Positions 32,588 to 38,185 of a stretch of 43,761 nucleotides of DNA are shown one piece after another (position 1 is the stretch's first letter; each line of letters begins with the position of its first letter). The stretch covers positions 1-43,761 of the forward strand of contig NZ_SAXY01000011.1 of NCBI RefSeq assembly GCF_008016535.1, read 5' to 3'. The notes beneath the pieces are model-generated. The model was not told where the DNA came from. It made no database searches and was given only the letters and a program-made list of their open reading frames with translations. The translations under genes and the position numbers were made by a program. Origin of the DNA: Brachyspira pilosicoli (GTDB lineage: Bacteria > Spirochaetota > Brachyspiria > Brachyspirales > Brachyspiraceae).

Positions 32588-32614
32588 TATATTTATTTAG
32601 TTTTCAATAAACAA

Positions 32615-32652
32615 AAAGCCTTTGGTAGTTTTTAGCTATCAAAGGCTTTTTT
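32615..32652. terminator. Bidirectional terminator between pgk and the PTS operon
   Basis: A 14-bp stem, AAAGCCTTTGGTAG (32615-32628) with CTATCAAAGGCTTT (32636-32649; one G-U pair), has T-runs on both strands. It serves pgk on the plus strand and the convergent PTS/mur operon on the minus strand. Confidence 0.85.
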
Positions 32653-32665
32653 ATTATTAATATAA

Positions 32666-33097
32666 TTAATCTAAATCTATATCATCATCATCTTCTTCAT
32701 TTAAAGATGGTTCTAAAATTGCATCTTTACCTGTACTAATTATATCATTTACTAATTCATTAATATCTTCTTTATCAGAAGAAAAATATTCTAATAACAT
32801 AGCAAAATTCATTCCTGCTATTAATCTTATATTAAAATTATCTTTTTCTTTTTTTGAAAATATATTTCCTATATTAAAAGGAGTTCCGCCGTATAAATCC
32901 GCTAATATTATAATATCTTTTACATCATTCATTTCATTCAAACAGCTTTGTAATTTTTTAGAAGTTCCTTCAAATCCGTCATCAGCAGTCATACATACTG
33001 TATGATATCCTGAAACTTCTCCTAATATCATTTTGGCAGATTCCATTATTTCATGAGCAAAATTACCATGACTCATAAGTATTAAACTAGGTTTCAT
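32666..33097 (-). CDS. PTS mannose-family EIIA component
   Basis: This cytoplasmic phosphocarrier receives phosphate from HPr. M-S-H-G-N-F-A places the phosphorylated histidine at His10, as in the EIIA-Man domain. A-D-L-Y-G-G-T-P-F-N (about 67-76) is the second family signature. The length (143) fits a stand-alone EIIA, with an acidic tail (E-E-D-D-D-D-I-D). GGAG lies 7 nt before the ATG. It is the last gene of the operon, 3 bp after the hydrolase gene, and should supply IIB at 35897-36373. Confidence 0.93.
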   Translation of the reverse strand: MKPSLILMSHGNFAHEIMESAKMILGEVSGYHTVCMTADDGFEGTSKKLQSCLNEMNDVKDIIILADLYGGTPFNIGNIFSKKEKDNFNIRLIAGMNFAMLLEYFSSDKEDINELVNDIISTGKDAILEPSLNEEDDDDIDLD

Positions 33098-33100
33098 TTA

Positions 33101-34060
33101 TTACTCCATAAATATTTTATTAATTTCTTCTCTTAATTCTAAATAAGTATTATTATCTCTATTTGGATGAATTCTGTTTGTAAGAATTATCATAGCCTCT
33201 TTAGAGTTTAAATTTATTAATATAGAAGTTCCTGTAAAACCTGTATGATATAAAGTATATTTTCCATATCTTTTATCCCAACCTAAAGTTCTCTCTCCAA
33301 AATTAATATCTATTAATTTTTTTATTGAATTATGAGATAAAATTTTTTCATCATCATTTGATATAGAACAAACAAAAATATTTAAATCTTCAAGCGTAGA
33401 AAATAACCCCGCACTTCCTATCTCTCCTAAAGCATAAGATTTAGAATCATGAACCTCTCCGCAAATTATTCCTCTCTTATCTGTAATTTCAGTTGGTATG
33501 CAGCAATCTTTATTTAAAGGATGATATGAAGTATTATTCATATTAGCAGAATTAAAAATATAATCTTTAAATGATTTATCTAAATTTGAATTTGTAATAT
33601 TTTCTATTATAAATCCAAGTATAATAAAACCTATATCAGAATATATTGTTTTATGATAGTTTTCTTTATTTATAATAGTGCTATCAAATATTTTATTTTT
33701 ATCTATATTAGTTTTATTATCTAAATCTGCTTTAACTCCTGAATTATGAAGCAGAAGTTCTTCTATAGTAATATTTTCATCTTTAAAATTACTGCAAAAT
33801 TTGACAGCTTTATCATCTAAATTGATTTTACCAAAATCTAATAATTTGAGCATCATTGAAGTAGTACCTATCACTTTTGTAAGAGAAGCTAAATCATAAA
33901 TACTGTTATTATCAACTCTCTTTAAATTATTAGTTCCATAAATACCTATATAATTATTTTTAACATCATTATCTTTAATAAAACTATATGAAACATTATA
34001 TATAATGTTGTTTTCTATAGCTTTATTTAATATAGATGATATAGTATCAAATTTATTCAC
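33101..34060 (-). CDS. Beta-lactamase-fold serine hydrolase (possible muropeptide amidase)
   Basis: The protein belongs to the class C beta-lactamase/penicillin-binding family. S59-L-T-K62 is the SxxK nucleophile motif, Y140-S-D takes the YxN place, and H-T-G near 271 takes the K/HTG place. It has no signal peptide, so it is probably cytoplasmic. In B. subtilis a member of this superfamily (AmiE/YbbE, exported) removes peptide from N-acetylmuramyl-L-alanine and is encoded with murQ-murR. By context this gene may do similar work inside the cell; that is inference. GTG start with AAGGAAA 5 nt upstream. It lies between murQ and EIIA. Confidence 0.85.
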   Translation of the reverse strand: MNKFDTISSILNKAIENNIIYNVSYSFIKDNDVKNNYIGIYGTNNLKRVDNNSIYDLASLTKVIGTTSMMLKLLDFGKINLDDKAVKFCSNFKDENITIEELLLHNSGVKADLDNKTNIDKNKIFDSTIINKENYHKTIYSDIGFIILGFIIENITNSNLDKSFKDYIFNSANMNNTSYHPLNKDCCIPTEITDKRGIICGEVHDSKSYALGEIGSAGLFSTLEDLNIFVCSISNDDEKILSHNSIKKLIDINFGERTLGWDKRYGKYTLYHTGFTGTSILINLNSKEAMIILTNRIHPNRDNNTYLELREEINKIFME

Positions 34061-34091
34061 AGTAATTTCCTTAAGTATAAATTATAATTTT

Positions 34092-35000
34092 TTAGGCACT
34101 TTTAGCTTTTTCTATAGCTATTCTTACCATATTATTAGATTCTTTTAAAAGTTTCTGAGCTTTATCCTTATCTATGGAAGCCTTATTCATTATAATTGAT
34201 ACAGCAACAGATTTTCCTGATTCTTCAAATAATTTAGAAGATTTTTCTATATCAACTCCTGTTATTGAAGATATCATTCTTATAGCTCTAGTTTCCAACT
34301 TTTTATTTGTAGGAAGCACATTAACCATATAGTTTCCATATACCATTCCTGATTTTATCATAACCCCTGTTGAAATACTGTTTACAACCATCTTAGCAGC
34401 TGTTCCTGATTTCATTCTAGTAGAACCTGATATTACTTCAGCCCCCACTATAGGAGTAATTACTATATCAGCAGATTTTTCAACATTTTCATTTCTGTTT
34501 GATGATATCATCACAGTTAATGCCCCTATTTCTTTTGCATAATCCAATCCTCCTAATACATAAGGAGTTCTTCCGCTTGCAGCTATACCTACAACACAAT
34601 CCAAATTAGAAAGTTTGCAATTTACTAAATCTTCTCTTCCTAATTCTCTTGAATCTTCCGCACCTTCTACAGCTCTATACATAGCTTCTTTGCCTCCTGC
34701 TATTAGTCCGAAAGCTCTTTCAGGTGAAACATTATATGTAGGAGTAAGCTCTACTGCATCTAAAGTACCCATTCTTCCAGATGAACCAGCACCTATATAT
34801 ATCAATCTCCCACCTTTTATATATCTTTTTGCTATTTCATCTATAGCTTTTGCAATATTTTCACTTTCTTTTCCTACAGCATCAGCAACTTTAGAATCTT
34901 CTGTATTAATTATTTTAACCATTTCTATAGTACTTAAAGCATCTATATTCTTGGAATTTTCATTTACAGATTCTGTTACAAGATTATCTAAATTTTCCAT
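34092..35000 (-). CDS. murQ: N-acetylmuramic acid 6-phosphate etherase
   Basis: MurQ cleaves the lactyl ether of MurNAc-6-P to give GlcNAc-6-P and D-lactate. With the start at 35000 the protein has 302 residues, the family norm, and opens M-E-N-L-D-N-L-V-T-E-S. S-T-I-E-M-V-K-I-I-N, the SIS core Y-I-G-A-G-S-S-G-R-M-G-T-L-D (about 66-79) and A-E-V-I-S-G-S-T-R-M-K-S-G-T-A follow, with the catalytic Glu expected in the D-A-V-E-L-T-P stretch. GGAG lies 10 nt before 35000. The upstream ATG at 35036 has no Shine-Dalgarno sequence and overlaps the regulator gene. It follows the MurR-like gene by 22 bp. Confidence 0.95.
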   Translation of the reverse strand: MENLDNLVTESVNENSKNIDALSTIEMVKIINTEDSKVADAVGKESENIAKAIDEIAKRYIKGGRLIYIGAGSSGRMGTLDAVELTPTYNVSPERAFGLIAGGKEAMYRAVEGAEDSRELGREDLVNCKLSNLDCVVGIAASGRTPYVLGGLDYAKEIGALTVMISSNRNENVEKSADIVITPIVGAEVISGSTRMKSGTAAKMVVNSISTGVMIKSGMVYGNYMVNVLPTNKKLETRAIRMISSITGVDIEKSSKLFEESGKSVAVSIIMNKASIDKDKAQKLLKESNNMVRIAIEKAKSA

Positions 35001-35022
35001 AATTTTATAACTCCATATATCT

Positions 35023-35880
35023 TTATTCTTCATCATCTAATTTTAATTCTCTAGTCAGAATGCTAGTCTTTATAAGATTTTCTTTTATATTTTCAAAATC
35101 TTTTTGTATAGCTCCGAAATATAAAAGATCACTCACGATAAGAGATGAATACTTAGAAGTAATAGCTCCAATTCTAGTAAGTTCTTCATTATTAGGTACC
35201 GTAATTAGAACATCAGCCATTTTAGAGAGATAATTCGTTTTTTTTCTTGTTACAGCTATTATCGAAGCATTTTTTGAAGAAGCTATTTTTACAGGATAAA
35301 TTACTTCATTGCTTCTTCCGCTATATGAAAAAGCTATAACTACATCTTCTTCTGTAAGATAATTAAAAAACTCAGCATTTAAATGGGCATCTTCATAAAA
35401 GAAAGCATTAAAATTTGCTCTCTTAAGTTTATGAAATAAATCATAAGCAGATAAAGAAGAAGCACCTATACCAAGCATATATATATTTCTTGCTTTTCTT
35501 ATTAATTTAAAAGCCCTCTCCAAAGCATCTTTATCTAGCTGATAGAAAAAATCTTCATTAGATGATTTAATCAAAAGCATAATTTTATCGCATAATTCTT
35601 CTACATTATCATCAGCTGATATTATAGTATTAATATTATATTTATTATCATCATCGCTATTTTTACTTGCTATTGATATTTTAAGCTCATCTAATCCCTT
35701 AAATCCAATATCCTTTGCAAATCTTACCACAGAAGCTGAAGATACCCCGCAATTTTTTGAAATATCCAAAGCAGTTAATTTAATAACCTCTTTGGGATTG
35801 GACAAGATATAATTAGATATTTTCTTGTATGCTTTACTAAAATCTTCGTATTTATCTCTTATTACTAAATATGCATTCAT
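35023..35880 (-). CDS. murR: MurR/RpiR-family transcriptional regulator
   Basis: An N-terminal RpiR helix-turn-helix (about 1-77, with L-T-A-L-D-I-S-K-N-C-G-V-S-S-A-S-V-V-R-F) is joined to a sugar-phosphate-binding SIS domain (about 120-255, with L-G-I-G-A-S-S-L-S-A and A-F-S-Y-S-G-R-S-N-E). Such proteins sense phosphosugars. Placed directly before murQ, the likely ligand is MurNAc-6-P. It probably controls its own operon through the two palindromes at 38095-38109 and 38130-38156. AGAG is a weak ribosome-binding site. Assignment as MurR rests on context rather than on specificity residues. Confidence 0.88.
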   Translation of the reverse strand: MNAYLVIRDKYEDFSKAYKKISNYILSNPKEVIKLTALDISKNCGVSSASVVRFAKDIGFKGLDELKISIASKNSDDDNKYNINTIISADDNVEELCDKIMLLIKSSNEDFFYQLDKDALERAFKLIRKARNIYMLGIGASSLSAYDLFHKLKRANFNAFFYEDAHLNAEFFNYLTEEDVVIAFSYSGRSNEVIYPVKIASSKNASIIAVTRKKTNYLSKMADVLITVPNNEELTRIGAITSKYSSLIVSDLLYFGAIQKDFENIKENLIKTSILTRELKLDDEE

Positions 35881-35896
35881 TTAATTACTCTGCTCA

Positions 35897-36373
35897 TTAT
35901 TTTAAATATGCTTCTATAGATTGATCAGATTCATTAGGAAGCATTTGAGCTGTTATATTTATACCATCAGCTATCATACTTTTTATTAATGCAATATCAT
36001 CTTCTGTAAGATTCACAGATTTCTTTATTTGCACAGAACCTTCCTTTTTTGCTACATTACCAATATTAACTGTTTTTATAGGTACTCCATTTTTTATTAT
36101 CTCATTCATATCTTCTATATTTTTAGTTATTAAAAATATTTTATCTTCATCATAAGTTCCTTCTTTGAACTTTTCTGCTGCTTTAGCTTTTGATAATATT
36201 GATAATTTTACTCCAGCAGGCTTTGATATTTTTAAAGCAGCTATTATAGTTTCATCTTTTACAGCCTGATCATTAACCACAGCTATTCTTGTAGCTCCTA
36301 CAGTATTTGTCCATACCATAGCAACCTGTCCATGTATTAATCTTTCATCTACTCTAGCATTTACTATACTCAT
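35897..36373 (-). CDS. PTS mannose-family EIIB component
   Basis: The domain accepts phosphate from EIIA and passes it to the incoming sugar. V-D-E-R-L-I-H14-G-Q places the phospho-histidine at residue 14 in the classical context. V-N-D-Q-A-V-K-D and K-P-A-G-V-K-L-S are also family features. The length (158) is normal for a separate IIB. GGAGG lies 7 nt before the ATG. It lies between IID and the MurR-like gene. Confidence 0.95.
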   Translation of the reverse strand: MSIVNARVDERLIHGQVAMVWTNTVGATRIAVVNDQAVKDETIIAALKISKPAGVKLSILSKAKAAEKFKEGTYDEDKIFLITKNIEDMNEIIKNGVPIKTVNIGNVAKKEGSVQIKKSVNLTEDDIALIKSMIADGINITAQMLPNESDQSIEAYLK

Positions 36374-36402
36374 ATTATTGCCTCCTTATATGTATTTTTA
36401 AA

Positions 36403-37230
36403 TTATTTACTGAATAAACTAATAATAAAGTCAAGCATTCCTTGAGAATTACCCAATACCATTCCTATTGCTATTATTACTATAATCAAATGTGTAGAGT
36501 TAAATTTTTTCTTACCTAACAACCAATATGAAAATAATACTACAACAAGAGGTATCAAAGAAGGCATTATTTTATCAAGCATTGACTGTATATCTAAAGA
36601 AACTTCTCCTAAATTAAAAGTAAGATTTAATTTATAAGTTATAACAGATGCTATTAATCCACCTACAACTGTTAATCCTAAAATTGCAGCTCCTTCTGTT
36701 ATAGGTGCTATAGAATTGGCAAAACCTACGGCTAATTTCTTACTTTCATTATATCCCACATAAGTAAATTTATATCTTACGAAAAGTACGGCTAAACATG
36801 CCAATACAGGAACTATTAATCCTACAGCATTACCATCTAATGCTATATAAGAAGCAATAGAGAACACTATAGCTCTGTATATTGCAATAAATAAAGTATC
36901 ACCTACACCAGCAAAAGGTCCCATTAATCCAGTTTTTAAACTAGATACAGCCTCTTCAGATTTTTCACCTAAACTCTCTTCCAAAGCCATATCAGCACCT
37001 ATTATAAGATGAGACATTGCTGGAGTAGTATTAAAATATCCTAATTGCATTTTTAAAGCTTTTTTCATTCCTTCAGGATTATTTTTATATATTCTTTTTA
37101 AAGCAGGCATTATTACCCAAGCATATCCTAACCCCTGCATTTTCTCATAATTCCAACCCCATTGAAATCCGAATAAATTTCTAACATATACTTTATTAAT
37201 ATCACTTTTAGTTAATTTATTATTTTCCAT
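36403..37230 (-). CDS. PTS mannose-family EIID membrane component
   Basis: IID pairs with IIC to form the sugar channel. Typical features are the N-terminal R-N-L-F-G-F-Q-W-G-W-N-Y-E-K-M-Q-G-L-G-Y, N-T-T-P-A-M-S-H-L-I-I-G-A and G-P-F-A-G-V-G-D-T-L-F (about 108-118), followed by several membrane helices in the C-terminal half. The length (275) is normal. GGAG lies 8 nt before the ATG. Confidence 0.95.
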   Translation of the reverse strand: MENNKLTKSDINKVYVRNLFGFQWGWNYEKMQGLGYAWVIMPALKRIYKNNPEGMKKALKMQLGYFNTTPAMSHLIIGADMALEESLGEKSEEAVSSLKTGLMGPFAGVGDTLFIAIYRAIVFSIASYIALDGNAVGLIVPVLACLAVLFVRYKFTYVGYNESKKLAVGFANSIAPITEGAAILGLTVVGGLIASVITYKLNLTFNLGEVSLDIQSMLDKIMPSLIPLVVVLFSYWLLGKKKFNSTHLIIVIIAIGMVLGNSQGMLDFIISLFSK

Positions 37231-37261
37231 TTATTAACTCCTATATAATTAAAATAAATTA

Positions 37262-38068
37262 TTATCCATCTATTTCTATTTCATCATCATCAGAAACAGA
37301 AGTTCCAGCAGTTTCTTTTACAGTTCCTTTCTCCATTGTTCTGTAATAATTAAGAGAGGCAAAAGCAAATCCTAATAAAGCTACAGCTAATACACTCATG
37401 TTTCCACCGCTGAATGCTATAGCAACAAATCCTATGATAAAATAATAAAAATATTTTTTAAGTGGTAAATATCTCATAAGTATAGCAATACCCATTGCAG
37501 GAAGTAAAGCCCCAGCTGCTTTTAATCCGTTCATAAACCAGTCTGGTATGAAATTATTGATAGTTTGTATCACTGTTTCTCCAAAAAACAATCCTATAAA
37601 TACGGGTATAACCCTTGATAATACCCATGGCAAAGTACCAAGTACATTGCACATCTCTACGCCTTTATAATTACCTTCCTCGGCATATCTATCTGCTTTA
37701 TGCTGGAATATTACATTTGTCATTCTTCCTAAAATATCTAACTGTGTTAATAAAAGCCCTATAGGAACCGCTATAGCAATTCCATATTCAGCACCCATTT
37801 GAGATAATATAGCATAAGAAGTACCTATTATTGCCCCAGATAAATAATCAGGAACTGTAGCTCCTCCATAAGTGGCTACACCTAATGTAGCTAATTGCAA
37901 AGTTGCACCTATAAATAGACCAGATTTTATATCTCCCAATAAAAAACCTGTAAAAGTGGCAGCAAATAATGGTGTATATACCCCAATTTGTATGGAAATT
38001 TGATCTAATACGCCTATGACTGTGTATACACATAGTATTAGAATTACTATAGAAGATAATTCTTGCAT
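37262..38068 (-). CDS. PTS mannose-family EIIC membrane component
   Basis: This is the substrate-translocating subunit and the first gene of the operon. It has multiple membrane helices and the N-terminal family pattern Q-I-S-I-Q-I-G-V-Y-T-P-L-F-A-A-T-F-T-G-F-L-L-G-D, then G-A-T-L-Q-L-A-T-L-G-V-A-T-Y-G-G and P-D-Y-L-S-G-A-I-I-G-T. The length (268) is normal, with an acidic soluble tail (D-D-D-E-I-E-I-D-G). GGAG lies 8 nt before the ATG. Substrate specificity within the mannose family cannot be read directly. The linked murQ points to MurNAc or a derivative. Confidence 0.95.
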   Translation of the reverse strand: MQELSSIVILILCVYTVIGVLDQISIQIGVYTPLFAATFTGFLLGDIKSGLFIGATLQLATLGVATYGGATVPDYLSGAIIGTSYAILSQMGAEYGIAIAVPIGLLLTQLDILGRMTNVIFQHKADRYAEEGNYKGVEMCNVLGTLPWVLSRVIPVFIGLFFGETVIQTINNFIPDWFMNGLKAAGALLPAMGIAILMRYLPLKKYFYYFIIGFVAIAFSGGNMSVLAVALLGFAFASLNYYRTMEKGTVKETAGTSVSDDDEIEIDG

Positions 38069-38094
38069 AAAACATACTCCTAAAAATATTTTTT

Positions 38095-38109
38095 TGTAAT
38101 TTTATTACA
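38095..38109. promoter_or_regulatory. Operator palindrome O2 (leader of the PTS/mur operon)
   Basis: TGTAAT-TTT-ATTACA, a perfect 6-bp-arm palindrome, 26 bp before the IIC start codon. It is the same as the core of the site at 38130-38156 apart from one spacer base. The centres are 41 bp apart, about four helical turns. Confidence 0.65.
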
Positions 38110-38129
38110 TTTATTATTTTTATTTTATT

Positions 38130-38156
38130 TTAAAATGTAATTTCATTACATTTTAA
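38130..38156. promoter_or_regulatory. Operator palindrome O1 over the transcription start
   Basis: The core TGTAAT-TTC-ATTACA (38136-38150) lies within a longer perfect inverted repeat with 12-bp arms (38130-38141 and 38145-38156). It begins 1 bp beyond the -10 box, so it covers the predicted +1, as expected for a repressor site. Confidence 0.72.
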
Positions 38157-38157
38157 T

Positions 38158-38185
38158 AGTATATATAAAAAATTTGCTATTGCAA
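38158..38185 (-). promoter_or_regulatory. Promoter of the PTS/mur operon
   Basis: On the minus strand: TTGCAA (38180-38185), 16-bp spacer, TATACT (38158-38163). The predicted start near 38151 falls inside operator O1. The rest of the gap to 38548 holds an inverted repeat and a probable copA terminator. Confidence 0.62.

Follow-up and report, generated by a model that had tools for sequence, protein, structure and literature searches.

A seven-gene operon of Brachyspira pilosicoli probably forms a self-contained unit for the uptake and catabolism of N-acetylmuramic acid (MurNAc), with peptide-bearing MurNAc perhaps included in its cargo. The operon lies in a stretch of 43,761 nucleotides (assembly GCF_008016535.1, contig NZ_SAXY01000011.1), called here the window, which is one whole contig of a 2.76-Mb draft genome. 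On the minus strand, from 38068 down to 32666, its genes follow the order IIC-IID-IIB-MurR-MurQ-SxxK hydrolase-IIA, and thus combine a phosphotransferase system (PTS) with the MurNAc-6-phosphate etherase MurQ, a MurR-type regulator and a serine hydrolase. By its protein families, the importer counts as a mannose-family PTS rather than a MurP; the mechanism would otherwise resemble that of MurP, MurQ and MurR. The cargo is very probably of the MurNAc type, and the operon would then be a MurQ pathway served by a PTS that is not homologous to MurP. Among open-access papers, none was found that assigns MurNAc to a mannose-family PTS; a subscription paper could exist.

We infer the substrate, its phosphorylation, the hydrolase reaction and the inducer as follows. 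IIA and IIB would relay phosphate from HPr to the sugar, which IIC and IID would bring in as the 6-phosphate. MurQ would cleave the lactyl ether of MurNAc-6-phosphate to give N-acetylglucosamine (GlcNAc)-6-phosphate and D-lactate, and NagA, which is encoded elsewhere in the genome, would carry the breakdown onward. MurR would repress the operon through two promoter operators until MurNAc-6-phosphate appears. The likely cargo would include MurNAc bearing a short peptide, for example L-Ala-D-Glu, and the leaderless SxxK hydrolase would take this peptide off in the cytoplasm. An earlier, sequence-only reading of the window had proposed that a mannose-family permease feeds MurNAc-6-phosphate to MurQ, and this candidate pathway survived every genomic test run.

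Operon content and linkage to MurQ

The elements of the operon are listed below in the direction of transcription.

38158..38185, minus strand: promoter-like element TTGCAA-16-TATACT, a consensus match conserved in loci L040 and L041
38136..38150, minus strand: operator 1, TGTAATGAAATTACA, which follows closely on the -10 element and is the core of a perfect 27-bp palindrome
38095..38109, minus strand: operator 2, TGTAATAAAATTACA, 41 bp from operator 1
37262..38068, minus strand: mannose-family PTS IIC (PF03609, 247.8 bits)
36403..37230, minus strand: mannose-family PTS IID (PF03613, 282 bits)
35897..36373, minus strand: mannose/sorbose-family PTS IIB with a DERLIHGQV phospho-histidine motif (PF03830, 163.9 bits)
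35023..35880, minus strand: RpiR/MurR-type regulator, HTH_6 plus SIS (PF01418, PF01380)
34092..35000, minus strand: MurQ (above the TIGR00274 cutoff; PDB 4s12, 253 bits; start moved from 35036)
33101..34060, minus strand: SxxK serine hydrolase with a class C beta-lactamase fold (PF00144; AlphaFold2 fold) and no hydrophobic leader
32666..33097, minus strand: mannose-family PTS IIA with an SHG phospho-histidine motif (PF03610, 68 bits)
32613..32651, no strand given: terminator-like hairpin between the convergent pgk (plus strand) and IIA (minus strand), which ends the operon

Gene calls, Pfam and NCBIfam agree with the sequence-only description of seven minus-strand genes separated by gaps of 3-31 bp, and recover the families EIIA-man, Beta-lactamase (PF00144), MurQ, HTH_6 with SIS, PTSIIB_sorb, EIID-AGA and EII-Sor. 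The same reading had recognised a complete mannose-family permease, including its own IIA, among murQ and an RpiR-type gene; four Pfam families confirm it, with separate IIA, IIB, IIC and IID all above the Pfam gathering score. Both phospho-histidine motifs are present, SHG in IIA and LIHGQ in IIB, with histidines that we take to be the active ones. MurQ passes the TIGR00274 equivalog cutoff (357.7 versus 302 bits). The two closest homologues in the alignment point to 35000 (MENLDNL) as the start of MurQ, and with this revision the apparent overlap with murR disappears. Two further genomes of the genus share the operon with unchanged gene order (L040 and L041), so it is no assembly accident. 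The IIC of this clade carries a conserved acidic tail, DD(E/D)E(V/I)EID, at its C-terminal end (window 37262-37290); IIA (window 32666-32700) and its homologues have a similar tail, and the IIA tail of other mannose-family PTSs is acidic as well.

The association between this permease and MurQ has a sharp boundary. A scan by IID alignment, with one genome per species, returned 49 loci, each checked by tblastn; it speaks for Bacillota and spirochaetes. Adjacency of mannose-family IIC/IID genes to murQ was the check suggested by the sequence-only reading, and the scan returned a clear answer. MurQ lies in the same operon in 24 of the 26 loci with an IID of 57.6-74% identity, and in none of the 23 loci with an IID of 36-41% identity. 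The two exceptions in the close group are L080, which is cut by a contig end, and L082, which is without MurQ. To the close group belong, among others, Enterococcus, Vagococcus, Lactococcus garvieae, Companilactobacillus, Lacticaseibacillus, Loigolactobacillus, Bacillus chungangensis, Lachnospiraceae, Hungatella, an Oscillospiraceae bacterium and Breznakia. The gene order at several of these loci is exactly that of Brachyspira. In the Enterococcus faecalis record NZ_CP143580 the full seven-gene order is present, with glucosamine-6-phosphate deaminase ~4 kb away, and the PTS subunits are annotated only generically in RefSeq.

Broader sampling gave the same picture. Among 246 Lactobacillales genomes, MurQ is present in 167 and an IID of this clade in nine (at least 425 bits, the next best scoring 305), and in eight of these nine MurQ adjoins it, by listed coordinates or fetched loci. 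In the ninth, G453, the PTS and hydrolase lie together; its MurQ is encoded elsewhere, clustered with a MupG homologue, an RpiR-type gene and an IIBC-type PTS gene. None of the lower-scoring Lactobacillales IIDs among the matches listed is close to MurQ, by an approximate comparison of coordinates by eye. In Lachnospirales, only one of 246 sampled genomes has a clear clade member, and it is the centre genome itself.

In a 49-row MurQ tree, the 26 MurQs linked to the mannose-family PTS form one side of a 100/100 branch, and MurQs adjoining MurP-like IIBC proteins fall elsewhere, even in genomes that carry both systems. Other spirochaete MurQs also lie outside the clade, and none of their neighbourhoods that were read contains this PTS (the one at L046, for example, includes an ABC-type binding protein). 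The notion of a spirochaete speciality did not hold: the cluster is spread widely through Bacillota (Enterococcus, Vagococcus, Lactobacillaceae, Lachnospiraceae, Breznakia), and a spirochaete invention is rejected by both the IID scan and the MurQ tree. Within the genus, distribution is patchy, with a true MurQ in three of ~27 genomes searched; the operon is present in the genome of the window and in G078 and G098, where the copies occupy a different neighbourhood. A genome of the same family, G043, has IIC-IID-IIB-MurQ-IIA without MurR and hydrolase. Since the Brachyspiraceae rows group with Lachnospiraceae and Breznakia (100/97) and presence in the genus is patchy, the tree suggests that the operon was acquired by gene transfer from gut Bacillota, the direction depending on rooting.

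Within the genome, three observations leave the operon PTS as the sole identified source of MurNAc-6-phosphate for MurQ. First, the operon IID is the only mannose-family IID in the genome. Second, MurP was found neither in the operon nor in the genome: the eight PTS_EIIC genes, typed by NCBIfam score and neighbours, are of glucose/GlcNAc, sucrose (beside GH32), beta-glucoside, lactose/cellobiose and fructose types, and none approaches the cutoff of the MurP model NF007152, the best match being the sucrose-type IIBC beside GH32 with 160.8 bits against 516. A murP homologue elsewhere, which the sequence-only reading had named as fatal to its proposal, was thus searched for and not found. Third, the anhydro-MurNAc kinase AnmK was rejected as a source, being absent here and in nine relatives (ten genomes). 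A kinase-based route to MurNAc-6-phosphate could in principle still operate. We also rejected, as a MurNAc route, a MupG (DUF871) homologue on contig C49 (L005:166-1248), which adjoins a cellobiose-type PTS IIC. The family occurs in 15 of 19 searched genomes of the genus, regardless of MurQ; the family is therefore not specific to MurQ or its pathway, and the substrate of this homologue is probably not MurNAc-6-phosphate-GlcNAc.

Promoter and paired operators

The promoter-like element abuts operator 1, and its outer edge (38185) is where the sequence-only reading had drawn the right-hand limit of the region. By number, such a consensus match is at chance level (43 promoter-like sites found, 43.1 expected); this one is conserved in the two sister genomes, in keeping with the earlier placement of all seven genes behind one promoter.

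The operators are better defined. The motif TGTAAT-N3-ATTACA has two exact copies in the 2.76-Mb genome, both at this promoter, and none in 100 shuffles of the window. Pairs resembling TGWAAT-N3-ATTWCA, spaced 39-42 bp apart and allowed up to two mismatches per site, lie upstream of IIC in 20 of 32 related loci, ranging from E. faecalis via Lachnospiraceae to Brachyspira; shuffled sequences yielded 0.045 on average and never more than 1. The three loci without MurR in the cluster (L042, L082 and L142) have no pair either. Nine further loci have no recognisable pair, one of them, L080, being the contig that ends before the MurR position; the motif has thus diverged or been lost in some Lactobacillales. 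From this distribution of pairs, we infer that the MurR-like protein binds the operators. It has the HTH_6 and SIS domains and the operator at a murQ promoter that mark a MurR-type regulator. Its score against the E. coli-type equivalog NF012026 is 106.5 bits, below the cutoff of 408, and orthology to E. coli MurR is therefore not claimed.

Sequences resembling catabolite-responsive elements (cre; for example ATAAGCGCTTAT and AAACGCTAGCAA) lie between promoter and IIC in the Bacillota loci L061-L064, L068 and L108; inspection by eye revealed none at the Brachyspira promoters.

Cargo and the serine hydrolase

The hydrolase bears the motifs SLTK (at 59), YSD and HTG, and its AlphaFold2 model (pLDDT 90.8) has a class C fold with matches in the PDB. 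Fold comparison led no further than the class C/esterase/D-peptidase fold in general. Among NCBIfam models the hydrolase matches PBP4B (NF002968) best, with 86.2 bits against a cutoff of 385. Simple hydropathy detects no hydrophobic N-terminal stretch in the protein or in most homologues, in line with the earlier statement that it lacks a signal peptide.

Whether the imported MurNAc carries a peptide is, in our estimate, evenly balanced. Apart from MurQ and MurR, no non-PTS protein accompanies the PTS more often than the hydrolase. MR_MLE enzymes adjoin hydrolase homologues at four loci in all, L142 and the spirochaete MurQ loci L046, L055 and L056; G453 shows the order PTS-hydrolase-MR_MLE enzyme-class A beta-lactamase-like protein. 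The best named models of these enzymes are L-Ala-D/L-Glu epimerase in L142, L046 and L055 and DgcA in L056, all below cutoff; in L055 the hydrolase homologue also lies next to AnmK and MurQ. Together these links point to cytoplasmic muropeptide breakdown. A fuller version of the proposal is a second, independently evolved PTS route, in which MurNAc with its stem peptide would be imported as the 6-phosphate and handled by a dedicated cytoplasmic serine amidase and an adapted MurQ subfamily; we hold it tentatively, at somewhat less than an even prospect.

Several observations weigh against the proposed unit as a whole or against its peptide-processing part. L082 and G453 keep the PTS plus hydrolase without a linked MurQ. 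Nine clusters are without the hydrolase (L042, L061, L067, L075, L078, L079, L081, L083 and L084), which is thus not essential to the core function, and an L-Ala-D/L-Glu epimerase was not found in Brachyspira. The sequence-only idea of peptide trimming in the cytoplasm accordingly stands in part: the homologues beside L-Ala-D/L-Glu-type epimerases favour it, and the hydrolase-less clusters and the missing epimerase do not. In seven Bacillota genomes this cluster coexists with a classical one of the mupG-murQ-murP type, so that something other than free MurNAc or MurNAc-GlcNAc may be the cargo. Lastly, the MurQ clade has its own fixed residues, L85, T86, Y89, A96 and F97, beside Glu84, presumably the counterpart of the catalytic Glu83 of E. 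coli MurQ, and these could mean a changed MurQ substrate.

The same evidence bears on the possibility, doubtful yet tangible, that the PTS imports free MurNAc only and that the hydrolase acts separately, for example as an esterase or D-amino acid hydrolase on cell wall decorations. The clusters without hydrolase and the lack of an epimerase in Brachyspira suit this explanation, and the class C fold fits esterases, D-peptidases and acyltransferases alike. It accounts less readily for a leaderless hydrolase as so frequent a partner, for its homologues next to L-Ala-D/L-Glu-type epimerases in four other loci, and for the seven genomes in which a complete MurP-type system is present as well, a coexistence that speaks for a different cargo.

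The permease's own relatives allow another explanation. The nearest IID relatives outside the clade (~40% identity) sit beside GH35 beta-galactosidases with AgaS/tagatose-bisphosphate aldolase or NagA, and IIC has its best NCBIfam match in the N-acetylgalactosamine model AgaW (171.5 bits, under the AgaW cutoff). Because of these neighbours, the branch around the permease probably handles N-acetylhexosamines and, by analogy, 3-O-substituted ones. MurNAc is GlcNAc carrying a 3-O-lactyl group, and the neighbourhood and AgaW match fit MurNAc, short of proof. The same neighbours also favour import of another N-acetylhexosamine or of a 3-O-linked N-acetylhexosamine disaccharide, with MurQ merely co-regulated and recycling MurNAc-6-phosphate from elsewhere. 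We consider this unlikely, given that the operon contains no glycosidase, that MurQ would be left without an identified substrate source in a genome where MurP and AnmK were not found, and that MurQ and permease co-occur with a sharp boundary under an operator dedicated to this operon. Very unlikely is a MurQ clade whose substrate is some other 3-O-carboxyalkyl sugar phosphate, or peptide-bearing MurNAc-6-phosphate itself, with a permease to match: the residues next to Glu84, the long, fully supported stem branch of the clade and its coexistence with classical MurQ in seven genomes would fit, but the protein exceeds the MurNAc-6-phosphate etherase equivalog cutoff and matches solved MurQ structures over its length, and to our knowledge MurNAc is the only common 3-O-carboxyalkyl sugar.

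Two further observations concern enzymes near the hydrolase homologues and the Lactobacillales clusters. A flavin adenine dinucleotide (FAD)-linked oxidase, possibly a D-lactate dehydrogenase, lies beside the hydrolase homologue in a spirochaete MurQ locus (L056:8205-9638). Leaderless class A beta-lactamase-like proteins (PF13354) are encoded at the end of two Lactobacillales clusters (L142:11818-12588 and L145:4745-5530).

Comparison with known systems

The gene set recalls three characterised clusters. In E. coli, murQ-murP-yfeW form an operon with a divergent murR, and PBP4B is among the MurQ-operon enzymes (PMC5061867). Both there and here, the cluster joins MurQ and a MurR-type regulator to a PTS importer and to a serine hydrolase of the PBP4B/class C type. 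The E. coli importer MurP, however, is a glucose-superfamily IIBC protein that needs an external IIA, whereas the mannose-family PTS here has four subunits with its own IIA and is not homologous; the hydrolase, too, is far below the PBP4B cutoff and without a leader. Bacillus subtilis has the cluster murQ-murR-murP-amiE-nagZ-ybbC, with the MurNAc-L-Ala amidase gene amiE (PMC5061867). MurQ, MurR, a PTS and a gene for a serine hydrolase or amidase, there AmiE, are thus again together, but AmiE and NagZ of B. subtilis work outside the cell, while the present operon has a leaderless hydrolase, no NagZ and an importer of a different family. AmiE belongs to the beta-lactamase superfamily. The cargo of the Staphylococcus aureus mupG-murQ-murP-murR system is MurNAc-GlcNAc, trimmed by the glycosidase MupG (PMC6262408). 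Its sequence of PTS import as the 6-phosphate, trimming by a cytoplasmic hydrolase and cleavage by MurQ is the one proposed here, except that the Brachyspira operon has a serine hydrolase instead of MupG. The nearest out-of-clade relatives of IIC, IID, IIB and IIA, at ~40% identity, are streptococcal and staphylococcal mannose-family PTSs with GH35, AgaS or NagA (L085-L107), which have the order IIB-IIC-IID-IIA and no MurQ, MurR or hydrolase.

Few peptidoglycan-sugar transporters are known for MurQ-containing bacteria without MurP, and the cluster names a concrete candidate family, with its MurQ and IID clades as diagnostic marks and an operator in addition. It is present in E. faecalis, a species open to laboratory genetics. 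Should the cargo prove to be a muramyl peptide, gut bacteria would have here a PTS for cell-wall fragments that are immunologically active; were stem-peptide import true, NOD2-type ligands would be removed from the gut, in some enterococci in parallel to MurP.

Two other genes recur at the Bacillota clusters. A TauE/SafE-type (TSUP) permease lies beside or divergent from L063, L070, L073-L079, L081, L083, L108, L144 and L159; it is a possible exporter of D-lactate or of some other organic anion that MurQ produces. A secreted endonuclease/exonuclease/phosphatase-fold protein with carbohydrate-binding domains adjoins L064, L065, L066, L068, L071, L083 and L108; in L083 its gene sits between IID and IIB.

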